From: a virus
Reading direction: 5' to 3' (one strand)
DNA length: 36,145 bases
Virus record (IMG/VR): IMGVR_UViG_3300032080_000015
Span: 1-36,145 of that record
Both the position numbers and the translations under genes were made by a program. Below the pieces are notes generated by a model that did no database searches, was not told where the DNA came from, and saw only the letters and a program-made list of their open reading frames with translations. Shown one piece after another: positions 9,760 through 31,186 of the stretch (the first letter of the stretch is position 1; each line of letters starts with the position of its first letter).

Positions 9760-12164
9760 TTCTTCACCCGATAGACGCGAATGCTTGAGCCGATGGCGAG
9801 CGAGTTGGCCACGCTACTGCTGATCGTGATGCCAGTTACGTTCGTCCCCGCGGTAGCCCACTGGTGTTGCGACATGCCCATTACGATAGTCGTGGTGTTG
9901 CCGCGCTCGTAATTCAGCCTCGCGCGCGGGCGCGCGTCGAAATCCTTGAAGATGAAGCCGGCGATGGTGGATTGCGTGCTGGCATCCATGGTGCCCACAA
10001 AGGCGTTGTTGGCACGCGCGCCTGCAATCGTCGTGTTTGAAACCGACATTGCGCAGCGGTGGTAATTCGAATCCGTCGTGTCTGCGTTGTAGTAAAGGCT
10101 GATGCTCGCACCGGATGCCGTGGCGTTCTTCAGCTTCACTTCCACGTAATAGGTTTCATCGGTGTCCAGGTCCAAGCCGCTGATGGCGAGATTCGTTGCA
10201 GCAGCACCAGCGACCAACGCCTCACCGATGTACTCCATCGTCCCGAGGTTGCGGTTGATGCCGTTCTGGCGGAAGCGGAAGCGGTCGGTCGTGTCGTTGA
10301 CCCATACATCGCCATCCGCAGGGCTCGACTTGTCGCCGGCCGCAGGGATGATGTTCAGGCCACGATCCACGACCTTTGCCTGGAACACACTACCGCGCAT
10401 GAGCCCGTAGTCGTGCGCGCTCGTCGTTCCAGAATAGCCAATGCCGTCGCCGTCGCTGGCGAAGAATCGACAACTGATGCCGCCCGCACTCGTCGCCGTG
10501 AAAATTTGCATCGTGGCGCTGGTGCCGACGATGGCCGCGAAGGTCTGCGTTGCGCTCCACGTATTCGCACCGTTGAGCAGCGGGACGTTTCCGCCGCTGG
10601 TGCCAGTGTTCTGCGTCGCGGCGGTGCCGAGCGCCAACGTCGCACGCTGCGCTGCTGCGTCCGCGTCGTCGAGCAGCGCCTTGCCGGCCGCAGTGATGTC
10701 GCCGCCAAGCTCCGTAGTCGTCACCACGCCCGCGTCGATTTCCCACACCGACCCGCTGGACGACACCGTAATGTCGCCCTTGTCGCCGTCGCTGATGCCG
10801 GCGCCAGCCGCAAGGTCGAAACTGACTGCGCAAAGCTGGCCAGCCGTGAACGTGCCGAAAACACCGCCCCGAAGCGACAGGGTGAACCCGTAGGCGTCAG
10901 CCACCGACCCAAGCACTGTCGTTATTTCGTAGATCGCCTCTCCCGTCTCCGAAGCAATGCGAAGGTGCGCGCCGGTCGTTACGTCAACGTCCAGCCATGC
11001 GTCGTAATCGGCGCCGTTGAACGAATTGATGTTGATGTACAAGTCGGTGACGGCGACAGGGTCGGAATCGTTTATCCCGATTTCGCCATCCGGCGGCGCG
11101 GTTTCCGGGATGGCAGAAAGCACCCATTCGCCCATGATCCCACCGAGCGGACGGGGCGCAATTTCGCGCGTCACGAATTCGTAGGTCACGCGCACCGCGT
11201 CGGTCGCGGAGAACGTGCCATTGGTGGATATGGCCGACCCGAGCGTGAACGTCATGTCCGAAACGTCGGGCGCGTAGGTATCCACGAACGCCACCAGCCG
11301 CGCGCTCTCGTCGGCGTTTACCACCGTGATGATGAACTGGTTGAGCGTTTCCAGGCCGGAGAGCGAGAACGCCAGCGCCAGCCAGTCGGCCCCGGCCGAA
11401 TCCGTCGTACTGACGCGAACCGTCGTGGCGGCGCTCGGGTCGCCGTCGTCAAGCGTAACCTCGCCCACGGCAGGCGCAGACCCATCGAGCGCGGCGATGA
11501 CATACGGGCCGCCCAAGTCCACGGCGCCACCGCCGCCCGCGCCGCCAGGGATGTCCACCGTCAGAACGCCAGCCGCTTCCGTCGTCGTAACGCCAGAGCC
11601 GGTGAAGTCCACCGTGTCGATGATCGCAGCGACCGGCACGCCTTCGTCTTGGAAGTCGATTCCGGGCTGCACACCGAATGCCACGAAGTCGGATAGGTCA
11701 GGGTCGGACGTTCCGGTGATTCGCCCCTTGCCGTCGCGCACGATGCGCTTGAGCGCGCCGCCGCCTGCGTCAGCCACGTTCGACAGGCCCAGCGCGGTGT
11801 TTCCAGCCTCGCCAGCAGGATTCGTCGAGTCGATTTCGCCCGCCGTCCCAGTGATGCTGCGCGGCACGATGTCGCCGTCCGTTTTCAGGACGAGATACCC
11901 GCCAGGGACCGCGTTCGCAAGCTGCTGGACGTTGGACGGAATGCTCTGCACCAGCGGCCAGGCCGTCACCGTCACTTCCCGGATGACGCCACCAGGCGCA
12001 GGAGGGGGCGCAGGAGCCGCGGTCACTTCGCCATCGAACAGCGTTCCATCGGCATTGAACACGTTGACCCCGATGGTGGCGCCATACGTCGCGCCTTCCT
12101 CCACCTTCGTCGTCTTGCCGCCGCCGTTGTGGATGGGGACGGTCTTGATGGGGCGCTTGGCCAT
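9756..12164 (-). CDS. tail fibre / receptor-binding protein, 802 aa
   Basis: A long, Gly/Ser/Thr/Asp-rich, low-lysine protein with many short beta repeats, typical of trimeric fibres. About 455-550 contains recurring fibre phrases (GDKGDITVSSSGSVWEIDAG, ALGTAATQNTGTSGGN, LNGANTWSATQTF) that correspond to the shaft. A proline-rich linker (PAPPPAPGG) lies at about 50-58. The C-terminal region (about 675-802) reads as a jelly-roll-like head (VEVKLKNATASGASISLYY, ending GSSIRVYRVKK). No enzymatic depolymerase motif is recognised. It shares a TAATG junction with the giant virion gene, so it is expressed with the late genes. No T7 gp17-like N-terminal anchor is recognised, so attachment may use another adaptor. 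Confidence 0.8.
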   Translation of the reverse strand: MAKRPIKTVPIHNGGGKTTKVEEGATYGATIGVNVFNADGTLFDGEVTAAPAPPPAPGGVIREVTVTAWPLVQSIPSNVQQLANAVPGGYLVLKTDGDIVPRSITGTAGEIDSTNPAGEAGNTALGLSNVADAGGGALKRIVRDGKGRITGTSDPDLSDFVAFGVQPGIDFQDEGVPVAAIIDTVDFTGSGVTTTEAAGVLTVDIPGGAGGGGAVDLGGPYVIAALDGSAPAVGEVTLDDGDPSAATTVRVSTTDSAGADWLALAFSLSGLETLNQFIITVVNADESARLVAFVDTYAPDVSDMTFTLGSAISTNGTFSATDAVRVTYEFVTREIAPRPLGGIMGEWVLSAIPETAPPDGEIGINDSDPVAVTDLYININSFNGADYDAWLDVDVTTGAHLRIASETGEAIYEITTVLGSVADAYGFTLSLRGGVFGTFTAGQLCAVSFDLAAGAGISDGDKGDITVSSSGSVWEIDAGVVTTTELGGDITAAGKALLDDADAAAQRATLALGTAATQNTGTSGGNVPLLNGANTWSATQTFAAIVGTSATMQIFTATSAGGISCRFFASDGDGIGYSGTTSAHDYGLMRGSVFQAKVVDRGLNIIPAAGDKSSPADGDVWVNDTTDRFRFRQNGINRNLGTMEYIGEALVAGAAATNLAISGLDLDTDETYYVEVKLKNATASGASISLYYNADTTDSNYHRCAMSVSNTTIAGARANNAFVGTMDASTQSTIAGFIFKDFDARPRARLNYERGNTTTIVMGMSQHQWATAGTNVTGITISSSVANSLAIGSSIRVYRVKK

Positions 12165-15100
12165 TACGGTTCCTTGGGTTCTTTCACGAATTGATAGGCG
12201 GATTCCAACAGGTCGAAAACCTGGTCGTCGTCGTAGGCTTTCGGTTCCTCGCCCGTGAGGTCGGCCAGTTCGCGCTTCGTCATCTGCGCCACGCGCGAAA
12301 GCATGCCGCGCAGGTTGTTGCGCGCCGATGGCGGAATCTTCACGCCCCAGCGTTCCTCGATGAGCGCATAGTTTTCCGTGCGGTTCGCAGCTGCCAGTTC
12401 GGACAACGCTTCCTCCGTCGCCTGTAGCTGGTACAGGTCGCCATAGGCTTTCGCCTGCATCGCCTTCGCCAGCGTGTCCACGGTCGGGTTGAGCATCGCG
12501 CGATTCATCACCGCTTCGTACTTGTCGCCGAGCACACCCTGCACGCCGTAGTGACCGGCTATTTCGTGGAACGCGGTGAATTGCTCGTTTGCCGTACTCA
12601 TGTTCTTGGCGATGTAAACCTTGGCTTCCTCCGGGGAGAAAACGCCAAGCGCGCCACCCTTGAACGCTTCGCGCACGCTCGCATTGCCGAGCTTCGGGAA
12701 GTCGCGCGGCATGACTTCCTCCACCGCGGGCGCGTTGCGCAGTTCCTTCACGATTTCCTGCGTCGGCGTGGGAGGCTTGAACATCGGCGCGCCAAGGTCG
12801 TCGCGCTTGATCTTGCCCGCGCGGCCGAGCTTCTTGTTCTCGCCGTTGTCCGCGTACTTGTCGAGTACCAGCCCGTCCGTGACTTCCTTCGGGTACTGGC
12901 CCTTGATGTGGTCCAGTTCGGCCTCCACGCCCGCGTCGTCCTTGATGTCGGCCAAGCGGCCTTTCAACGCGCGCTCGTCGGGCTTGCGGTACTGCGCGCC
13001 GACACCAAGCAGCGACACGGCGAAGATGGCCGCCGACTTCGGCAATCCGTTGTCCGTCATGAGACCGCCAACGTCGTGCAAGGACAGGTCGCCGACTTCG
13101 GTGTAGACGACATCACCCGGCTTCGCCGGCTCGTCCCAGCGCAATGCAAAGCCCGTCTCCTGGAACGAAATCGGCACCACCAGCCCGGCCAGCACGTCTC
13201 CCGGCGTCTGCGGCTGGCCGATGACGTTCTCGCCCGTCGCCAGCGTGGCGATGGCGCCGGGGATCGGAGCCAGCTTGGTGCGGACGAAGTTCGTGATGAC
13301 GTTCCACGTCGTCTGCCCGCCATAGTCGAGTTCGCGCGGCAACGCCTCCCCGAAGAACCCGGAGTCCGACAGGCGGTAGCTGCTGCGAAGCGGCGAGACG
13401 CGGCCCGAGGTCGAAACGGTTTCTCCGGTCAGCGCGCGCGCCAGGAACACCGTGACTTGCGAAAGTCCGGTCATCGGGTCGAGGTACGTGTTGTTGAACT
13501 TGATTTTCAGGAAGTTCGACGAGCGCGGATCGAACGACACCAGCGGTTCGTCGTCCTCGTCGTCGGCCGCCAGTGCCGCCAGCCCGAACACCACTGACAC
13601 GCCCATCATGAAGCGCGCATATTCGGCCGCGATCATGCCGCGCGTGCGCAGCGTGCCGCCGTAGAGCGGTTGCAGCGCCAGCAGGTTCAAGCGGCTGGCC
13701 ACCAGTCGCGGCGCGAAGAAAATGGTATTCAGCCCCGTGGCGCTGGTCGTGTGGTTGTTCAGCCCGATCTTGCCGCGGCCGGTCGCCACGTTGATGAAGT
13801 TCGCAATGGCTTTGCCTTCCGCTTCGGTCGGAACCTTCGACTTCGCCAGCGAGGCCACCATCGCGTCGAAAGAGTCGGCGCGAATCTGATTCAGGACCGT
13901 CGTGTAGGCGCGCTGGGAGCCGCGCACCAGCCCGCCGAGCGCCCACTGCGGCATGCGCTCGATCCAGCGGGATTGGAACGCTTCTTCCACCTTCGCCTGC
14001 GACACGCCCAAGTTGTCGTATTCGGTCAGGTCCAGCTTGAAGCGCGCGTAGAGTTCGGCGTTCGGACGCGCCTTCAACGCCTCCGCGGCCTTGAGCGCGC
14101 CGGCCTCCGACTTGAAGGCGCCCATCATCGACGGCACGGCCTTGGCCGCGCGCACAGGATGGCCCAGCGTGATAAAGCCGCCTTGGCGCAGCAGGCCCGA
14201 GAAATCGAGGCTCGTCAGGTACGAGCGCGCCAAGTTCGTCGCTTCCTTGCCGTAGCCGAACACCTTGCCCAGCGGCGAACGCTGCGCCATTTCTTCTTCG
14301 AACTGACGCTTTGCGAATTCGGCTTTGGCTTGCAACAGTTTCAGCTTGGCTTCGGTGTTCGCGGCGTCCAGCTTCTTCGCTTCCGGGCGCGGACGGCGCG
14401 CGTAGTCGTTCGCGGCAATGCGGGCCTTCACTTCCTCAAGCTGGCGGGCGAGCTGCTTGGCGCGCGTGCGCTGGTAGCGTTCCTCCGGCGTGGCCTTCGG
14501 GTTGTCGATCATCGCGCGCTCTTTCAGCAGTGCGTCACGCTGCGCCACCAACGCTTCGATTTCCGGCGTGATCGGCGGCGGCGCGGCGCGCTTCGGGCGC
14601 TCGCCCGTGGCGATTTGCTTCTCGATGTCGGCGATTTGGTTCGACAGGTTGGTGATGCGCGCTTGCTGGTAGCTCGCCAGCTTTTCCGGGTCGTTCCCAG
14701 CCTGCCGCGAAGCGCGCTTGAGCATGTCGTTCAGCGCGCGGCGCTTCTCGCGCACGGCCTGCGTCGCCTTGTCGCGCTGCGGGCCGGACTTGAGCGCGGC
14801 CAGCCCTTCGCTCATGCGGTCGATGCTCTCCTGCATCTGCACCAGCGAGCGAAGTTCGCGCAGCGCCACCTTGTCCGCTTCCTTGCTCGGGAACAGCACC
14901 TTGCCGTATTCCGAGAACAGGCGGCGCACGTCGCGCTCGGTCATGTCGTCGCGCAGCGCCTTCACGTCAGCATGCACGGCGCGCATGACGGCATCCTCAC
15001 CCTGCACGCCCGCCTGCACATGCTTGCGCGCCAGGTTGTAAATGTCGCGCGTGGTGATGTTCTCCGGGTCGATGGCACGCTCCGTCGCCACGCCGCCGGC

Positions 15101-18100
15101 ACGCAGCTTCGCGGCTTCGAATGCCTGCGGCAACGCTTCGGCGAACTTGTCGAACTGCGCGCCAAGCTGGCCGCGCATCGCTGCGGTGAAATCTTCCAGC
15201 GTCGTGACGCCCTGCACCGCGACGACTTCGGCGCCGATGGTGGAGAGGTTGAAGAATTCGACGGGGGAGACGGCGGGGCGGGAGAACAACAGGTCGCGCT
15301 TCTTGTCGGCGTCGTAGGTGCCACGGTTGAATTGGCCCTTCACTTGGCCTTCGCCGAACGGGATATAGACGCGATGCTTCTCGCCGCCCATCTTTCCGCC
15401 AGTGTCCACGATGCCGTCGTAGCCCAGCGAGCGCAGGACATCCGTCACCTTGTCGGGGATCGTCGTCCATGCGCTATCGCTGATGCCGGCGTCCGTCACG
15501 AAGTCGGCCACCCAATCGCGCAGCGTGCGCGTGTTCTTGTCCCATGCGTCCGAGCCGCCTTGCGCCGCGCGGCTGCGGTCACGCTTCGCAGCCGAGCGCA
15601 ACGCAGGCACAACGTCCGCCGGCAAGTCACTCGTGACGAGCGGGGACTGCATCGCCACATGCACCGGGATGAGCGCCGGATAGGTTGCGGTCGGAGAATC
15701 AAACGTCACCGAATCCATGGGCATCCCGGCCGCTTTCAGCACGTCCATGAAGCGGCCTTCGTCGCCGTAGATGGAACCGCTGGACAGCCACGACTCAACA
15801 AGCGCCTGCAACATATTGCCGCGCGCCTGCTTTACCTCGTAATCGAAGTTGCCGATGCCGGTCGCGTGACCTTCCGGCTCAAGGATGACGTTCTCGCCCG
15901 CGTCGTCCATCGCAACGCGCGGCGCGAGCGCGGTGATGCGCTGGCGCACGTCGGACGGAAGGCTCCACCAAGCGCGGTCAATCGCCATCTGGCTGCGATA
16001 GCCGGGGACGCGCACCTTGAACCAGGAGGCGAAGCCCTGTTCCTCGTAATCGAGGCTGGTGTCTTGCTTGCCGGTCGCGTAGTTGCTGCCGATATTGGCA
16101 TCGCTGGTGAAGAACGCCATGGGGCCGGACGTGGCGCGGCGCGCATCGAAACCCTTGCCGATGCGATCCGGGCGCGCGGTTCCATGCACAGCTTCCACAA
16201 CGACCTTCTGGCCGCTGCGGAAATCGTAGGTGCCAGCATCGGAGCGCGTCACCAACGGTGCGTTGTTGGACCAGCGCCGGAAGTTCTCTTGGCGGGTTTC
16301 CTCCGTCATGCGCTTGCCGCGCGACTGCGCCGGCCCCCGCATCGCGGCATCGCGCACCCCCGCCGAACGCTCCACCGAGCGCGCAGCGTCGGCCAGGATC
16401 GTGCGCAGTTCCGACTCCGAGAACGAGCGCGGGTTGAAGCCCAGCGAGCGCAGGAAGCGGCGCAGGGCCGCCAGCACGCGGTCGATGAGGCCGCCGGTCA
16501 CGCCGCGCTCGGCCATGACGGCGAGGAATTCGCGGGCGAACAGCGTGGGGTCCGCGTCAGGGTAGCGGCGCAGCGTCGATTCCAGCGCGCCGCGCACGTC
16601 CGCCGACAGGCCGGACTTGTCCGCCTTCATCGCGGCAACGTCGGTTAGGACGCGCTGCCAGCCTTGACGGCCCAGCACGCCCTCCACGCCATAGTGGCCA
16701 ACGGCTTCGTGCGCCAGGACTTGCAGCCCGCGCGCGGAGTTCGCCAGGTTCGACGCGACGAGCCACACCTTGCCGGTGCCGTCGTACCAGCCTTCAACGG
16801 TCTGCCAGTCGCGGCCGGTCTTGGCTTCGTCCGGCAGCGCGTCGGCGTCCTGCACCACCTCGACGGCCGGCGCATCGCCGCGCCACTCGCGCACGATGTC
16901 ACGGATGGCGGCGGACAGGTCGGTTTCCGACATGCCGATGTCGAAGGCTTCGAAGCGGCCGGCGCCTTGGGCGGGGCGGGAGAACGGCACGTCATCGCCG
17001 GGGGCGCCGGGGTCGTCCGCAGCCTCGCGGCGCGCGGCTTCTACCATCACGCGCGAGTCGTCGCTGATCGGCCGCACGTCGTCGCCGCGCAGCGCGGCCG
17101 CCAGGATTTGTAGCGCGTCGTCGTCGTAGGAATCCGGCGGCAACAGGTCGGATTGCTCCATCGACTCGCGCAGCCGGTCCAGCGTCATCCCGCCATTGCC
17201 CGCGCGCCACAGACCCGGAATCGAGCCTTTCAGGTCGCGGTCGGACCAACCGAGCAGGCGCTTGAATTCGGTGGCGTTGAGGCCGCCGCCGCGCGCCAGG
17301 CCAGCGAGGTACGCACCAGCCGAGAAGTTGGCGGGGCGCGGCTTCTTGGGCTTGGCGGCGACGGGCGCCGGGGCCAGGCCAAGGGCTTCTCGCGCTCGCG
17401 CGGCGTCGGCCTTGATCTTCGGCAGCGTCGAGCGCGCCGGCCCGGCCTTCGCCATTTCCTGCACCAGCGCGCGGTAAGCGACCATGGCGCCTTCCTGCGC
17501 CTCGTAGTCGTCCTTCGCCTGCTGCGCGGTGCGTAGCTCGGCTTCCAGCGTCTGCACGCGGTCGGCGTACTCCTTGAGCTTGGCCGATTCCTCCGCCGTC
17601 AGCGGGCGCTCCTTGCGCACGCGCTCGCGGCGCTCCAAGGCTTCGAAGGTGAAGTCCTCGCGGATCATGCGCTGGCGGAACTGGCCGAGCCGGCCCCATT
17701 CCCGGCCGCTCGCCGCCGTGGCCTGGTCGATGTCGTTGATGCGCGCTTCCGCGTCGTCCCACTCGCGCTTTGCCACCGCGCGCTGTTCCGGGGACAGCTT
17801 CGGGTCACTGGCGCGCAGCGCGGCGTCGTCGCGGCGCTTGCGCTGGTTCACCTTCTCGACCAGCAGCGCGGCTTCCTCCGTGACCGAAATCGACGCATCG
17901 CCCTGGGTCCGCAGCTTTTCGGCCGCTTCCTGCGCGAAGTTCGGGTTCTCGGTCAGCGCGGCTTGCGCCTTGTCGAGCGTTTCTCGGTTCGACTGCGAAG
18001 CCGCTCGGATGATCGGGTCGGCGCCGCGCTCGGCGCGCTCGCGGTCTACGGTCGCATTCTTCGTGCTGGTTGCCTTCGGATCGGGCGCGCGCGGCGCTGC

Positions 18101-20857
18101 GGCAGGCGCGGACGCGCTCGGCGGGGCGGAATCCCCGGCGCGGCGCTGCGGCGATCCTGCGGGCGCTGGGGCGCTTCCACGGCGCTCGGCCAAGACGCGA
18201 TTGGCCAGCGCGTCGGCCTTTTCGTTGAGTGCGCGGTTTCGCTCGCGCTCGGCTTGCAGCGCCGGGCGCGTGGCCGCTATTTCGTCGGGAGTGCGGACGC
18301 GGGGCAGCCCATCACGCCCAACGTCGGATTCGACGCCCTCAGCTTCCGATGCTCGCGGCGGTGCGGCAGCGCCCGTGCGCTCGGCGAGAGCGTCGGCGAG
18401 TCCAGCGCCAGCAGTTCGACCGGCTTCGGGCGTTCGTTCTTGCGGCAGCGTTTCGCGGGGTAGTCGCGCATTCGTGTCCTCCGTGGGTTCGGTAAGCGCA
18501 GCGAGCAACGCATCATCGTCAGCGAGTTCTTCGGCAATCGACCGCTTCGGCGCGGGTGCCTTGCCAGCGTTCTCCGGGTCATAGGTGGCGGCGTCGATGA
18601 CGTGCATGGGCATCGACTTGGCGCCGCGCGCGAGCGCGTCAGCCGTCCGATGGTTGCCGTCATAGATGCGGAATTCGCCGTCGCGCATGCGGACAGCCAC
18701 CGGCATGTCGCCGTAGCCTTCGATCAGGTCGCCCGGCCCCTTGCGGGCATCGAAGTCATCCCAGCGCATTTCCGTCTGCGGGCTGGCTACGCGGTCGAGC
18801 GGCACTTCCTCCACGCGCGCGGCGCGCTGCATGTCCTCGCGCGTCGGCGCCAACGGCACGGAAAGCGAAGCGGGGCCGGGAAGGCGAGTGCGCTTGGCCT
18901 TCGCCTCACCCTGCAATTCCCGGAACGCCTTGCGGCGCGTCGCCTCGCCAGCCTCGGAGAAGCCGCCGGACGGCGCAAGCGGGTTCTCGCGGATGAATTC
19001 GCGGGCCAGGATGGTCCCGATGCCGCGGCCCTGATAGTCCTCCGCCACCGTGTTGAGGGTTTCGCCGTTCTCGATTTCGATGCTGCCCACGGTCTTGCCG
19101 TCGATCTGCGCGAACAGGCCCGTGGGCGTGCGCAGCAGTTCGACCGGCGCGCCGGCCTTGTCGGCCAGCGTCATCGCGGGCACGGCTTCGGCCGGCGTGT
19201 CCATGTCCTCAGACTTGAGGATTACGCGATCCTCGGGGCTGATGCGCTTACCGCTCGGGTTCACCGCGGCGATGTATTCGTCCTCGGGCATGGCGAGGGC
19301 GTCGGCGAGCGTGGAACGCTTCGGCGATGCTTGCATTGAACCGGCCTGCGAGGCAGGAGCAGCAACGGTTTCGGCCGTCGGCGCCGGGACTGAATCCGAG
19401 CGTGGAACATTCTGGCGGATCGGCGGGAGGTCGGTGGCTTTTCCCACCAACCGCTCCGCAGGCACGTCTATGGGATTTCCCATAGACCCCGGCAGCACGT
19501 CCGCCAGCCCCGGCACAGCCTGGGTCACCTGCGCCACGACTTCGGGCGGGATGCTGGCCAGCACGCTCGCAAGGTCGCCGCCGGCCGCCGGCTGGGCCGC
19601 CTGATCGGACGAGGACGCGGGCGGGACGACCGGCGGCGATTCGATGGCGGCGGCTAGGTCCGGCAGCAGCGGCTCGGGGATGGCGGGCGGCGCCTTCGGC
19701 ACGTTCGGGGATTGCAGCGCGCCAGCAAGGACGCCCATCGGGCCAGCGGCCAGGGCTTCCGTCGCAGCCGCACCACCCACGCCGCGCCACGGGTCGTAAT
19801 CCGCGCCGCCGGCAATGGTGCCGACGTTCTGCGCGAGTTGGTTCGCGCCGCCCTCGATGCCCTCGCCCACGGTTTCCTTGACACCGCCGAGCGCCGCGTT
19901 CGCCGTGCGCGAGCCAGTTTGACCCTTGGAGATTCGGCCGAGCAGGGTGTTCTCTGCCACGTTGAATCCCAGTTTCTGGCTCAAGCCTTGCAGCAGCGCA
20001 GACGTAGCCGTTCCCGTCGTGGTGGAAACCGAGCGCGCGGTATCGGCCAGGATCGCGCGCGCCTGCGCTGGGTCGCCCGTCATTTCAAGCAACCGCTGGT
20101 ACACGGGGTCGTGGAACAGCATGCGCTCGTCGGCCTGCATCACCGATGCGAACGCGCCCTCGCCCGCGCCCGCGCCTTCCACGCCAGCCATGGAGCCGAG
20201 TTGCGCGACCGTGGCCGCGCCTTCCGCAAACCCCAGCCCCTTCGCGCCCAGGCCCACGGCGCCGCCCAGCGACAGCGACGGGATGAGGCTATCGCTCACC
20301 GTGGCTAGTGCGGACGGGTTCGTGAGTATTTCCTTGGCGGCCGGAATTAACCCCGCCTTCGATGCTTCGGCGAGCCGCTTCTGCGTGTCCTTTTCCTTGG
20401 CCGACTGGAACACGCCCGCCGTGTCGGCGTAGTCGCCGAGATAGCGCGCCACGTCCTGCAAGGCGAAGCTGGCCGGCTGGCCGGCGTTCGGATCAGCCGC
20501 GCGCGTCTCGGCCAGGCCCATGCGCGTCGCCGCCACGGGGTCGTTGATGAGGTCGGGCAGGTACTCGGAGAAGGCGCCCATGAGGCCGGAGCCGGCTTCC
20601 AGCGCGTTGAACGCCGTGGCGCCGAGCGGCACGCCATCCCAGGGCGTGCGCTGGTTCGCGGTGTTGACGATGGATTCACCGATGCCCAGCCCGGCCTTGC
20701 CGATGCCCAGCACGCGGTCATAGCCCGCTTCCAGCCAGCCGCGTTCCGGCTCGGCCGCGAACGGGTCGTGGTCTACCGCCCGGAGCTTACCTTTCGGCGC
20801 GGCAACAACCGGCCCCGCTTCGGCAAAGGGATCGTGGTCTACCGGGCTGATGGGCAT
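12164..20857 (-). CDS. giant polyvalent internal virion protein, 2897 aa, multi-domain
   Basis: Visible parts in order: repeated VDHDPFA at the N-terminus; Ala/Gly-rich regions to about 400; GNAT-like QGRGIG (609-614); ParB/Srx-like DGNHR (733-737); charged coil with GREWGRLGQFRQRM (about 1050); PFSRPA linker (F1292); metallopeptidase-like HEAVGH (1383-1388); ADP-ribosyltransferase-like region from VHGTA (H1558) to YDGIV (D1814) and YIPF; second FSRPA (F1858); coiled coils (about 2000-2190); a large domain (about 2215-2570) with a membrane-like helix near 2415; and a second site, HEIAGH (2764-2769). Known: such polyvalent proteins are packaged and ejected with phage DNA to act in the host. 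It occupies the place of T7 gp16 but shows no transglycosylase motif. Domain calls rest on short motifs. Confidence 0.8.
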   Translation of the reverse strand: MPISPVDHDPFAEAGPVVAAPKGKLRAVDHDPFAAEPERGWLEAGYDRVLGIGKAGLGIGESIVNTANQRTPWDGVPLGATAFNALEAGSGLMGAFSEYLPDLINDPVAATRMGLAETRAADPNAGQPASFALQDVARYLGDYADTAGVFQSAKEKDTQKRLAEASKAGLIPAAKEILTNPSALATVSDSLIPSLSLGGAVGLGAKGLGFAEGAATVAQLGSMAGVEGAGAGEGAFASVMQADERMLFHDPVYQRLLEMTGDPAQARAILADTARSVSTTTGTATSALLQGLSQKLGFNVAENTLLGRISKGQTGSRTANAALGGVKETVGEGIEGGANQLAQNVGTIAGGADYDPWRGVGGAAATEALAAGPMGVLAGALQSPNVPKAPPAIPEPLLPDLAAAIESPPVVPPASSSDQAAQPAAGGDLASVLASIPPEVVAQVTQAVPGLADVLPGSMGNPIDVPAERLVGKATDLPPIRQNVPRSDSVPAPTAETVAAPASQAGSMQASPKRSTLADALAMPEDEYIAAVNPSGKRISPEDRVILKSEDMDTPAEAVPAMTLADKAGAPVELLRTPTGLFAQIDGKTVGSIEIENGETLNTVAEDYQGRGIGTILAREFIRENPLAPSGGFSEAGEATRRKAFRELQGEAKAKRTRLPGPASLSVPLAPTREDMQRAARVEEVPLDRVASPQTEMRWDDFDARKGPGDLIEGYGDMPVAVRMRDGEFRIYDGNHRTADALARGAKSMPMHVIDAATYDPENAGKAPAPKRSIAEELADDDALLAALTEPTEDTNARLPRETLPQERTPEAGRTAGAGLADALAERTGAAAPPRASEAEGVESDVGRDGLPRVRTPDEIAATRPALQAERERNRALNEKADALANRVLAERRGSAPAPAGSPQRRAGDSAPPSASAPAAAPRAPDPKATSTKNATVDRERAERGADPIIRAASQSNRETLDKAQAALTENPNFAQEAAEKLRTQGDASISVTEEAALLVEKVNQRKRRDDAALRASDPKLSPEQRAVAKREWDDAEARINDIDQATAASGREWGRLGQFRQRMIREDFTFEALERRERVRKERPLTAEESAKLKEYADRVQTLEAELRTAQQAKDDYEAQEGAMVAYRALVQEMAKAGPARSTLPKIKADAARAREALGLAPAPVAAKPKKPRPANFSAGAYLAGLARGGGLNATEFKRLLGWSDRDLKGSIPGLWRAGNGGMTLDRLRESMEQSDLLPPDSYDDDALQILAAALRGDDVRPISDDSRVMVEAARREAADDPGAPGDDVPFSRPAQGAGRFEAFDIGMSETDLSAAIRDIVREWRGDAPAVEVVQDADALPDEAKTGRDWQTVEGWYDGTGKVWLVASNLANSARGLQVLAHEAVGHYGVEGVLGRQGWQRVLTDVAAMKADKSGLSADVRGALESTLRRYPDADPTLFAREFLAVMAERGVTGGLIDRVLAALRRFLRSLGFNPRSFSESELRTILADAARSVERSAGVRDAAMRGPAQSRGKRMTEETRQENFRRWSNNAPLVTRSDAGTYDFRSGQKVVVEAVHGTARPDRIGKGFDARRATSGPMAFFTSDANIGSNYATGKQDTSLDYEEQGFASWFKVRVPGYRSQMAIDRAWWSLPSDVRQRITALAPRVAMDDAGENVILEPEGHATGIGNFDYEVKQARGNMLQALVESWLSSGSIYGDEGRFMDVLKAAGMPMDSVTFDSPTATYPALIPVHVAMQSPLVTSDLPADVVPALRSAAKRDRSRAAQGGSDAWDKNTRTLRDWVADFVTDAGISDSAWTTIPDKVTDVLRSLGYDGIVDTGGKMGGEKHRVYIPFGEGQVKGQFNRGTYDADKKRDLLFSRPAVSPVEFFNLSTIGAEVVAVQGVTTLEDFTAAMRGQLGAQFDKFAEALPQAFEAAKLRAGGVATERAIDPENITTRDIYNLARKHVQAGVQGEDAVMRAVHADVKALRDDMTERDVRRLFSEYGKVLFPSKEADKVALRELRSLVQMQESIDRMSEGLAALKSGPQRDKATQAVREKRRALNDMLKRASRQAGNDPEKLASYQQARITNLSNQIADIEKQIATGERPKRAAPPPITPEIEALVAQRDALLKERAMIDNPKATPEERYQRTRAKQLARQLEEVKARIAANDYARRPRPEAKKLDAANTEAKLKLLQAKAEFAKRQFEEEMAQRSPLGKVFGYGKEATNLARSYLTSLDFSGLLRQGGFITLGHPVRAAKAVPSMMGAFKSEAGALKAAEALKARPNAELYARFKLDLTEYDNLGVSQAKVEEAFQSRWIERMPQWALGGLVRGSQRAYTTVLNQIRADSFDAMVASLAKSKVPTEAEGKAIANFINVATGRGKIGLNNHTTSATGLNTIFFAPRLVASRLNLLALQPLYGGTLRTRGMIAAEYARFMMGVSVVFGLAALAADDEDDEPLVSFDPRSSNFLKIKFNNTYLDPMTGLSQVTVFLARALTGETVSTSGRVSPLRSSYRLSDSGFFGEALPRELDYGGQTTWNVITNFVRTKLAPIPGAIATLATGENVIGQPQTPGDVLAGLVVPISFQETGFALRWDEPAKPGDVVYTEVGDLSLHDVGGLMTDNGLPKSAAIFAVSLLGVGAQYRKPDERALKGRLADIKDDAGVEAELDHIKGQYPKEVTDGLVLDKYADNGENKKLGRAGKIKRDDLGAPMFKPPTPTQEIVKELRNAPAVEEVMPRDFPKLGNASVREAFKGGALGVFSPEEAKVYIAKNMSTANEQFTAFHEIAGHYGVQGVLGDKYEAVMNRAMLNPTVDTLAKAMQAKAYGDLYQLQATEEALSELAAANRTENYALIEERWGVKIPPSARNNLRGMLSRVAQMTKRELADLTGEEPKAYDDDQVFDLLESAYQFVKEPKEP

Positions 20858-28773: not shown

Positions 28774-29823
28774 TTACGGCGCGGCGATGCTCATAACCGC
28801 ATTGCGGTTACGGGCGTTGATGGTCATGCCGTAGCTCGCCGTCATCGCGCGGTAATGCACGTAGCGGTCGAACGGACGGGGCGGTTTGCGGTCGAGCATC
28901 CAGCGACCGCGGGCCGGGCGGAACTTCACCGAGTTGCTGTTGATGAAGTACGCGCGGCGGGTCCACGGGTAGGTGATCGCGCCCAGTTCGGCGTCGAGCT
29001 TTTCGAAGGTCGGGTCCCACACCAGCGGGATGCCGTGGAAGTTCGCGCCCGTGATCGACGCATCCAGTGCCGTGCCGCCCTTCGACTGCATGGCAATGTG
29101 GCGCTGGATTTTCGTCGCGGCGACGGCTTCGTAGTTGTTGAGGAAGTCCACGCCGACCAGGATGTGCGTCGGCATCTGGCCGCCGTACAGCATCGACGCC
29201 TTCCACATTTCTTCCATTTCTTCGACGACGTTGGCGCGCGTCACGCCCATGTTGGCGTTGTTCTGCCAGTAGGTCGAGGTCGCAGCGTTGATGCCGCCGA
29301 CGATGCCCGTGGTCGGGGTCGTGGAAATCAGGTGATCCAAGCCCTTCACCGATTCGGCGTCCGCGCCGGCCAGATGGATTTCGCGGTCCATGCCTTCCTG
29401 CATCGATGCCTTCTGCGCCCGGTACTTCTGGCCCAGCAGGTTCACGATCTGGATTTTCTCGGCGCCCGACAGCGTGGCTTCCTTGTCGTCGGTGATGATG
29501 ATGCCGTTGCGGAACAGCTCGTCCTCGTCCACGAAGAAACCTTCGTGCGCGTTGGCGTAGGTGAACTTCGCCAAGCGGGTCGGGTTCTTCTCGTTGTACG
29601 TGACCTGCTGCCGGCCGTAGTAGTTCTGGTAGTTCGAATCGTTTGTGACGTACACCGATTCGTCGATGTAGCCATTGCCGAACAGCGAATCGCTGCGCAG
29701 CGCGCCGAGGGCCAGCTTGAGCAGCGGACGTTCGCTGTTCACCTGGTCGATGGGGTCGTTTTTGAGATAGAACTCGATTTGGGTGTTCGCACCCTGGTCG
29801 AGCATTGCCTGGGTCAGTGCCAT
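28774..29823 (-). CDS. major capsid protein, 349 aa
   Basis: The start ATG at 29823 has GAGG nine bases upstream; an upstream TTG-type extension to 29868 lacks support. Features of a major capsid protein: N-arm MALTQAMLDQGANTQIEF, a central ISTTPTTGIVGGINAATSTY, then PTHILVGVDFLNNYEA, and a C-terminal YVHYRAMTASYGMTINARNR. It lies after the scaffold gene and before a small beta protein, the standard order. No protease gene is next to it, so the head is probably built without an extensive cleavage step. The 280-base leader in front contains the RNA structures described separately and may set the high level of synthesis. Confidence 0.85.
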   Translation of the reverse strand: MALTQAMLDQGANTQIEFYLKNDPIDQVNSERPLLKLALGALRSDSLFGNGYIDESVYVTNDSNYQNYYGRQQVTYNEKNPTRLAKFTYANAHEGFFVDEDELFRNGIIITDDKEATLSGAEKIQIVNLLGQKYRAQKASMQEGMDREIHLAGADAESVKGLDHLISTTPTTGIVGGINAATSTYWQNNANMGVTRANVVEEMEEMWKASMLYGGQMPTHILVGVDFLNNYEAVAATKIQRHIAMQSKGGTALDASITGANFHGIPLVWDPTFEKLDAELGAITYPWTRRAYFINSNSVKFRPARGRWMLDRKPPRPFDRYVHYRAMTASYGMTINARNRNAVMSIAAP

Positions 29824-29832
29824 GTTGGCAGT

Positions 29833-29877
29833 CCTCGGGATAGTGAAAGGGGAAATGCACCTTTCCACGATCCGAGG
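29833..29877 (-). promoter_or_regulatory. nested hairpin covering the capsid gene Shine-Dalgarno
   Basis: On the leftward transcript, CCTCGG (29877-29872) pairs with CCGAGG (29838-29833), which contains the GAGG ribosome site of the capsid gene. Inside it, GAAAGG (complement of 29860-29865) pairs with CCTTTC (complement of 29845-29850). The double stem would hide the ribosome site until opened by ribosomes, a protein or the alternative partner CTCGG (complement of 29943-29947) upstream. Confidence 0.5.
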
Positions 29878-29942
29878 ACGCGAAGCCCGGAATAACGCGC
29901 TGCTGGTGGGCGATTCCAGCTTTCCGCCCTGCGTGGGCCGCC

Positions 29943-30036
29943 CCGAGTGAGTGATTCTCGGATGACACTCTGCCCCCTTGCGGTCGTCGCCCCAGCCGGC
30001 GTTTCAGGGGGAAGGACTTACTTCGCCGGCTGGGGC
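29943..30036 (-). ncRNA. structured leader element with long stem and possible pseudoknot
   Basis: On the leftward strand a perfect 13-base stem, GCCCCAGCCGGCG (30036-30024) with its complement (30001-29989), encloses a 22-base loop. The loop carries CCCCCT (30011-30006), which can pair with AGGGGG (29978-29973) just past the stem: an H-type pseudoknot of six pairs. A further hairpin, CCGAG/CTCGG (29961-29957 / 29947-29943), follows. No gene fits between 29824 and 30103. Function is inferred: a regulatory leader for the capsid gene. Confidence 0.5.
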
Positions 30037-30070
30037 TTCGATGCATCACGCGGGGGCGTGCGGCAACGCG

Positions 30071-30099
30071 ATATTGCGCGCGCGCCGCGATGCCGTCAA
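30071..30099 (-). promoter_or_regulatory. candidate leftward promoter before the capsid leader
   Basis: TTGACG (30099-30094), a 17-base spacer, and CAATAT (30076-30071) resemble a sigma70 promoter with a weak -10. It lies directly after the scaffold stop codon and would give a capsid transcript with a leader of about 240 bases that includes the structured element. Confidence 0.3.
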
Positions 30100-30103
30100 C
30101 AGG

Positions 30104-31186
30104 TCAGCCGCGCGCGTGCTCCGCGCCAAACGAAAACGCATCCTCATCGCTGGCAAACGTCGGCTTCACCGCGGCGACTTCCGTTCGCACGGGCGGGCGA
30201 ATCGACGTGACTGGCGGCAGGGCGGCGGCAGCCGGCGCCAAGGTCGCGGACAGCTCCACGAACTTTTCCAGCATCGCCGCCTTCCACTGGCTCGGATGCG
30301 TCGTGGGCGCAATGGCTTTCAGGTGCGCCACGATGGCCGGGCGGATTTCGGCATAACGCGGATGCCGGGCGAAGGTGTTGGCTTCCAGCGCGTTCACGTC
30401 GGCCTTGCCTTGCTCGACGGCCTGCGCCTGCTGTTGCTGGGCCTGCGTCTGCTGCTGGCCCTGCGCCGCGCGGGCTTCGGCGAGCTTCGCCGCGGCGCGC
30501 TGCGCGATGATTTCCTGCGCGCGCGTCGGGGTCAGGTCGCCGGCCTCGATTTCTGCCTTCAGATCGGGATGCTCGTCCAGCGGGTCGTAACCGGCGACCT
30601 TCTCGCCCACCAGCTTCGCCAGCATGGCCCGGCGGTCGTCCAGCACCGCGAGCGCGCGCTTGGCCGCAGCCTTGTCGCCCTGCACGGCCAGGTTGGCGTC
30701 GCGCATCACGCCGAGCGAAAGCTGGAAATCCTCGTAGCTCGCGCCCGTCTCGGTGATCGCGGTCACGAAGGCTTCGGCATCCTTGTGCTTCTGGATGATG
30801 GCCGGGATGGACTCGATGGGGAGCCCCGACTTCGCCAGCTCCGCCCTGATGGGGGCGTATTCCTTGGCCACGCCGGAAAGTTCCCGGAAGCGTTCCTGCG
30901 ACTTGGCGCTGAGTTTCGAGAGGATGGCCGCATCGGGGTCCGCTTCGCCCGTCGCACCGGTCGCGCCCGTGGCGCCCTGCGCCGGCCCGGTGGCTCCGGT
31001 TGCACCTTCGGCACCCGTGGCCCCAGTCGCACCCTCCTGTTGCTCGGCAGGGCCGGTTGCGCCCGTCGCGCCAGCCGGTTCCGGGGTCGATGTATCGGCC
31101 GGCAGGCTTTCGCCCTTCGCGCCAGCTTCGAACGCGGCTTCCGCGCCTGCGTCGAGTTGTTCGGGGGTTTTCGGTTCGTCGCTCAT
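30104..31186 (-). CDS. scaffolding protein with collagen-like repeats, 360 aa
   Basis: A highly charged, helical, alanine/glutamine-rich protein between portal and capsid, the usual place and composition of a scaffold. Residues 39-80 are a collagen-like tract of GAT triplets (GATGATGP, GATGATGATGE), broken at about 46-51 and 68-70. After that come helices (LSKLSAKSQERFRELSGVAK, then QQQTQAQQQQAQAVEQGK) and a tail, HPSQWKAAMLEKFVELS, that may bind capsid. Scaffolds guide head assembly and then leave. A collagen-like stretch is unusual in this class. The start ATG overlaps the portal stop (ATGA). Confidence 0.75.
   Translation of the reverse strand: MSDEPKTPEQLDAGAEAAFEAGAKGESLPADTSTPEPAGATGATGPAEQQEGATGATGAEGATGATGPAQGATGATGATGEADPDAAILSKLSAKSQERFRELSGVAKEYAPIRAELAKSGLPIESIPAIIQKHKDAEAFVTAITETGASYEDFQLSLGVMRDANLAVQGDKAAAKRALAVLDDRRAMLAKLVGEKVAGYDPLDEHPDLKAEIEAGDLTPTRAQEIIAQRAAAKLAEARAAQGQQQTQAQQQQAQAVEQGKADVNALEANTFARHPRYAEIRPAIVAHLKAIAPTTHPSQWKAAMLEKFVELSATLAPAAAALPPVTSIRPPVRTEVAAVKPTFASDEDAFSFGAEHARG

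Follow-up and report, generated by a model that had tools for sequence, protein, structure and literature searches.

In the leader of a phage major capsid gene, we find a conserved RNA that, in most related phages, can hide or expose the capsid Shine–Dalgarno (SD) sequence and that looks like an undescribed genetic switch. It lies in a viral sequence of 36,145 nucleotides (IMG/VR record IMGVR_UViG_3300032080_000015, positions 1 to 36,145; hereafter, the window), in which the capsid gene and its leader are both on the minus strand; coordinates of leader features are given from 5′ to 3′ on that strand. That a conserved RNA exists before the capsid gene is near certain, and we think it probable that this RNA controls capsid translation by switching. 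A preliminary description of the window had proposed a regulatory or stabilizing leader with a pseudoknot at this position; its observation is partly confirmed and its interpretation partly supported.

The leader occupies a gap of about 280 bases without a gene (29824-30103), which is real: the stop of the upstream gene lies at 30104 and the capsid ATG at 29823. The downstream gene (28774-29823), earlier taken to encode the capsid, matches the PHROG 9953 major head protein (E=5.8e-31), and alignments with its relatives begin at residue 1. Neither the capsid nor the neighbouring proteins received a name from Pfam, while PHROGs named the capsid and the terminase. Elsewhere on the minus strand of the window, an open frame of 2897 aa (12164-20857) spans nearly one quarter of the genome, and a Pfam scan of its C-terminal 278 aa returned no match. 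Read along the minus strand, the leader consists of a promoter-like site, a 13-bp hairpin (30036-29989), a further hairpin (29961-29943) and a 113-nt stretch to the ATG, and as a whole it folds more stably than its shuffles (z=-3.6). The promoter-like site, TTGACG-17 nt-CAATAT (30099-30071, with a start expected near 30064), is present as described, but its match is 8/12 and a generic scan does not report it.

The 13-bp stem of the preliminary description (30036-30024 with 30001-29989) is exact, is reached by 0/1000 dinucleotide shuffles of the region, and is the only perfect stem of at least 11 bp (loop of at most 40) in the 36-kb window. A loop sequence, CCCCCT (30011-30006), is indeed complementary to AGGGGG (29978-29973), as the proposed six-pair pseudoknot requires, but the excess over chance is weak, with 326/5000 shuffles of the loop and flank (6.5%) doing equally well. 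Stem and possible pseudoknot lie in an insert, specific to the window, between the promoter and the conserved element; no relative with this insert was found when viral contigs were scanned for exact matches, when phage records were searched for distant ones, or in any of the fetched loci.

The conserved element itself lies 3′ of this pseudoknot, at 29936-29824, and comprises a core of about 70 nt followed by a hairpin that hides the SD. In the core (29936-29865), a helix P1, CCACG (29936-29932) with CGTGG (29869-29865), encloses two H-type pseudoknots. The first (29929-29902) is made by the pairing of J1 (GGGCG, 29929-29925) with L2 (CGCCC, 29912-29908) around P2 (GCTGG, 29920-29916, with CCAGC, 29906-29902). 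In the second (29900-29871), P4 (TCCGGG, 29891-29886, with CTCGGA, 29876-29871) forms from the loop of P3 (GCGCG, 29900-29896, with CGCGT, 29882-29878). A partial duplicate of the J1/P2 module (GAGTG, TCAT, CCGAG, AAT, CACTC, A, CTCGG; 29970-29943) sits 41 nt upstream with a spacing, 5-4-5-3-5-1-5, identical to that of 29929-29902, and a descriptor of the module has three perfect instances in the whole 36 kb on both strands. This duplicate explains the second hairpin noted earlier (29961-29943), which is present, but as part of a copy of the conserved pseudoknot module. Four relatives (L261, L200, L254 and L202) have a long additional stretch inserted into the core around the P3 loop.

Covariation strongly supports a regulatory leader with a pseudoknot, although the conserved pseudoknots (J1:L2 and P4, within 29936-29865) differ from the one first proposed. 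A covariance model, R3, locates the element in the window with 41.1 bits (E=1.4e-9), after training on a set that excluded the window and its nearest relative, as well as most marine members and the satellite-like copy described below. When 48 sequences were aligned with MAFFT on sequence alone, the strongest covarying columns are those of P3 and P4, and the top-ranked column pairs fall mostly in P4 (85-99, 86-98, 84-100), P3 (59-94, 60-93, 61-92) and P1 (14-108, 16-106). Across 38 sequences, 92.7% of the cells in P1-P4 are paired and 12/18 pairs show two-sided change (0/500 shuffles), and pairing falls to 36-40% when the partner is slid by one column; in the same test, the covariation score was reached by 0/500 shuffles and the number of further pair types by 36/500. 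When marine phages and the satellite-like copy are added, 93.6% of P2-P4 is paired, with two-sided change in 10/13 pairs (0/500 shuffles). Compensatory changes on both sides occur in 3/5 pairs of P2, 3/4 of P3 and 4/4 of P4. For J1:L2, there are 11 distinct sequence variants of at least 4 bp, and a swap test gives 8.63 for a leader's own partner versus 7.18 for swapped partners (sd 0.26, 0/2000). A conserved reading frame through the leader, which the preliminary description had named as grounds for rejecting its proposal, was not seen, and conservation tracks base pairing as far as the start of the capsid gene.

The strand that closes P4 (CUCGGA in the window) is also complementary to the SD segment CCGAGG (29838-29833). 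In the resulting alternative hairpin (29877-29833), the anti-SD CCTCGG (29877-29872) pairs with this segment and hides the SD, GAGGA (29836-29832). Over 53 distinct leaders, the anti-SD pairs with its own tail with a score of 16.6 versus 13.2 for swapped tails (sd 0.32, 0/500), and examples of the pairing range from CCUCGCG/CGCGAGG to CUCAGAAG/CUUCUGAG. The hairpin folds with z=-3.4 in the window and -2.0 to -5.0 in 12 relatives (13/13 members tested). The anti-SD columns of the alignment display little classic two-sided covariation, in part because the tails are misaligned and the SD side is constrained. Because P4 draws on the same bases as the SD hairpin, which also contains the 3′ strand of P1, the two states compete; P4 formation and SD hiding are mutually exclusive, as expected of a switch. 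Exclusivity of this expression platform with the core was found in the Xanthomonadaceae-type group, which includes the window. In two marine members tested, the core is kept and the SD-hiding hairpin is absent (z about +0.5 to +0.7), so SD switching is not universal; this marine group also lacks a promoter directly in front.

The RNA precedes a homologous capsid gene in both prophages and viral contigs. In addition to loci fetched as capsid relatives, we scanned viral contigs with a pattern that is blind to the downstream gene and checked the matches with the covariance model. The next gene is a capsid homologue in 51/51 evaluable loci among the matches listed, the true number being larger; one further locus from the capsid-blind scan ends too soon to be evaluated. 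A second pattern led to marine phages (GC about 0.44) with the same core, formed by P1 ACAGG/CCUGU, J1:L2 GAUG/CAUC, P2 GCUGG/CCAGU, P3 GCAC/GUGU and P4 UUGGC/GCCAA, and with a capsid about 30% identical to that of the window's group (L182). In bacterial genomes, where it is mainly a prophage feature, the RNA occurs in 11/91 of Stenotrophomonas, 6/395 of the family, 4/398 of the order and 2/398 of the phylum. Two circular 42-kb S. maltophilia records annotated as plasmids carry it before a gene labelled 'phage major capsid protein'. These two GYH 'plasmids' (NZ_CP090425.1 and NZ_CP090426.1) have the identical length of 42041 and share their capsid-region proteins; they are probably one phage-like circular replicon deposited twice. 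Among four cultured phages whose capsid proteins have 22-28% identity, no credible match to the RNA was found, and the record of one (L385) begins too near the capsid gene. A distant capsid gene in Stenotrophomonas phage BUCT555 (L384:740-906) has a near-consensus promoter and a short leader that the RNA model does not match.

At the level of sequence, these comparisons establish the core helices and the anti-SD:SD pairing, show that the two exclude each other, and tie the RNA almost exclusively to one capsid family. The best explanation, and in our judgement a fairly likely one, is an undescribed, riboswitch-like cis-regulatory leader RNA that controls capsid translation. Transcription would start at a sigma-70-type promoter just upstream, and the core of about 70 nt would fold with P1 around its two H-type pseudoknots. 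With the core folded, P4 would take up the CCUCG(A/G) strand, leaving the SD free and the capsid translated (ON); with the core unfolded, the same strand would pair with the SD and block translation (OFF). A trigger, either a small molecule or a protein of phage or host origin, would tip this balance by binding the conserved core. We infer both the existence of the trigger and the assignment of the ON state. The purpose may be to silence a capsid gene that has its own promoter until the phage needs particles. A conserved, pseudoknotted, aptamer-like core with covariation, as is expected of a riboswitch, was found, and the predicted arrangement is that of a translational riboswitch; we would class the RNA as riboswitch-like, not as a riboswitch.

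An alternative is a protein-binding operator. RNA-phage coat proteins and T4 gp32 regulate the translation of their own messengers, and the core could likewise be an operator at which a phage protein (capsid, scaffold or late regulator) represses or activates capsid translation. The near-exclusive association with a single capsid gene family is what such an operator would predict, as is the repetition of J1/P2 modules in L254, L202 and, partly, the window, which would suit a protein with multiple target sites. However, the nucleotides flanking P2 and those of the P2-P3 joint are almost constant among phages whose capsid proteins are only about 30% identical, so a phage-encoded partner would need to have kept its specificity unchanged despite this divergence. 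The RNA also stands ahead of alpA in an element where no capsid homologue turned up in its vicinity. Taken together, we regard a protein operator as unlikely.

We also considered a passive element, namely a stable leader that shields an abundant messenger at its 5′ end, or a static, triggerless SD hairpin that sets the rate of translation. The very stable folding and, in the window, the 13-bp hairpin near the presumed 5′ end are consistent with this reading, but a covarying double pseudoknot and unpaired nucleotides that hardly vary exceed what stability needs, and the conserved competition between P4 and SD hiding favours the regulatory over the stabilizing half of the preliminary interpretation. 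A static role is improbable and, like the antitermination considered next, ranks below the riboswitch-like leader.

In most of the capsid relatives fetched, a promoter-like site and the conserved RNA precede the capsid ATG; the best upstream promoter scores average 8.37 versus 6.99 for shuffles and reach at least 9 in 32% versus 2.8%, and the sites lie mostly 108-178 nt before the ATG, a place matching that of the site in the window. In the marine members, the RNA begins right where the gene before it stops, and a promoter of its own is missing directly in front. An antiterminator like HK022 put, in which the RNA modifies RNA polymerase for read-through of the long structural operon, would fit the many relatives in which the RNA lies just downstream of a promoter and is among the first sequences transcribed, but it is highly improbable given that the marine members lack this placement, that the conserved anti-SD:SD pairing would be left unexplained and that Rfam reveals no similarity to known families.

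Repeated copies of the RNA also speak for the riboswitch-like reading, since tandem aptamers are a habit of riboswitches. Two capsid leaders (L254:1036-1200 and L202:2243-2407) contain repeated P2-type modules, some with an altered P3 part, and in L254 there are apparently three in a row. The sole exception to the capsid link is a host genome (G193) in which two full tandem copies of the RNA precede alpA (PF05930, E=3.6e-17). This gene belongs to a 5.5-kb element (L195:3452-9053, contig 20) that has an integrase, a tRNA-Arg and att repeats of 16 bp at a distance of 5.5 kb; no structural gene was recognised among the proteins scanned, and the surroundings of the RNA yielded no capsid homologue. 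With a tRNA integration site, an integrase, AlpA and no recognised structural gene, the element is satellite-like by its genes. Relatives of AlpA in viral contigs gave no credible copy of the RNA, and a pattern aimed at a satellite-type RNA gave zero matches, so the association with alpA comes from one genome. In the PICMI-type satellites of Vibrio, which are likewise small and carry an integrase and AlpA, activation requires AlpA expression and needs nothing beyond it, while the way in which the helper induces AlpA is stated to be open (PMC10803314). Unlike those satellites, the putative satellite in G193 has two tandem RNA copies before alpA, which, in this one genome, may report the lytic cycle of a helper. 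More broadly, it is conceivable, if speculative, that the RNA represents a widespread class of sensors in tailed phages that read a cellular or phage signal of assembly time and free capsid translation, and that a satellite captured the same sensor in tandem to express its excision activator, alpA, in its helper's lytic cycle.

The RNA is apparently undescribed. The preliminary description had suggested a covariance-model search against known RNA families; in Rfam 15 at the gathering score, no family matched the RNA in the window or in 18 relatives (the hits being two tRNAs alone), and below threshold or with permissive settings only chance-level matches appeared. Our literature search found no description of it, and the surveys of candidate structured RNAs that we examined do not mention capsid genes; an earlier description as an orphan motif is possible, the 2017 survey of 224 candidates being outside this coverage. 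To our knowledge, no riboswitch-like leader has been described for a capsid gene in tailed DNA phages. Should the switch prove real, the timing of capsid production would be set post-transcriptionally in many uncultured phages and in Stenotrophomonas-type prophages, and it would be explained how a prophage can bear a sigma-70-type promoter before its capsid gene. The alpA copy, in turn, would make helper activation of a satellite activator directly testable with a short RNA.

When compared to known systems, the capsid leader RNA shares with HK022 put that it is a structured phage RNA made soon after the promoter and acting in cis, but put acts on early-gene transcription (Nat Commun 2022, PMC9378689), whereas the capsid leader RNA belongs to a structural gene, pairs with the SD and need not lie beside a promoter. 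With phage autogenous operators, such as the leader of T4 gene 32 and the coat operators of RNA phages, it has in common a structured leader and a highly made protein. The T4 gene 32 leader also uses a pseudoknot. In contrast to these operators, the capsid leader RNA forms a double pseudoknot, has nucleotides conserved across capsids of about 30% identity and occurs, in addition, ahead of alpA in a small element that has no capsid gene close by. The pseudoknotted translational riboswitches (such as SAM-II, preQ1-II, preQ1-III, ZTP and SAH) differ from it in adjoining metabolic genes rather than a phage capsid gene, and no Rfam riboswitch model matches it; like them, however, it places a compact core directly 5′ of the SD, has an anti-SD strand common to the core and the SD, and occurs in tandem copies.
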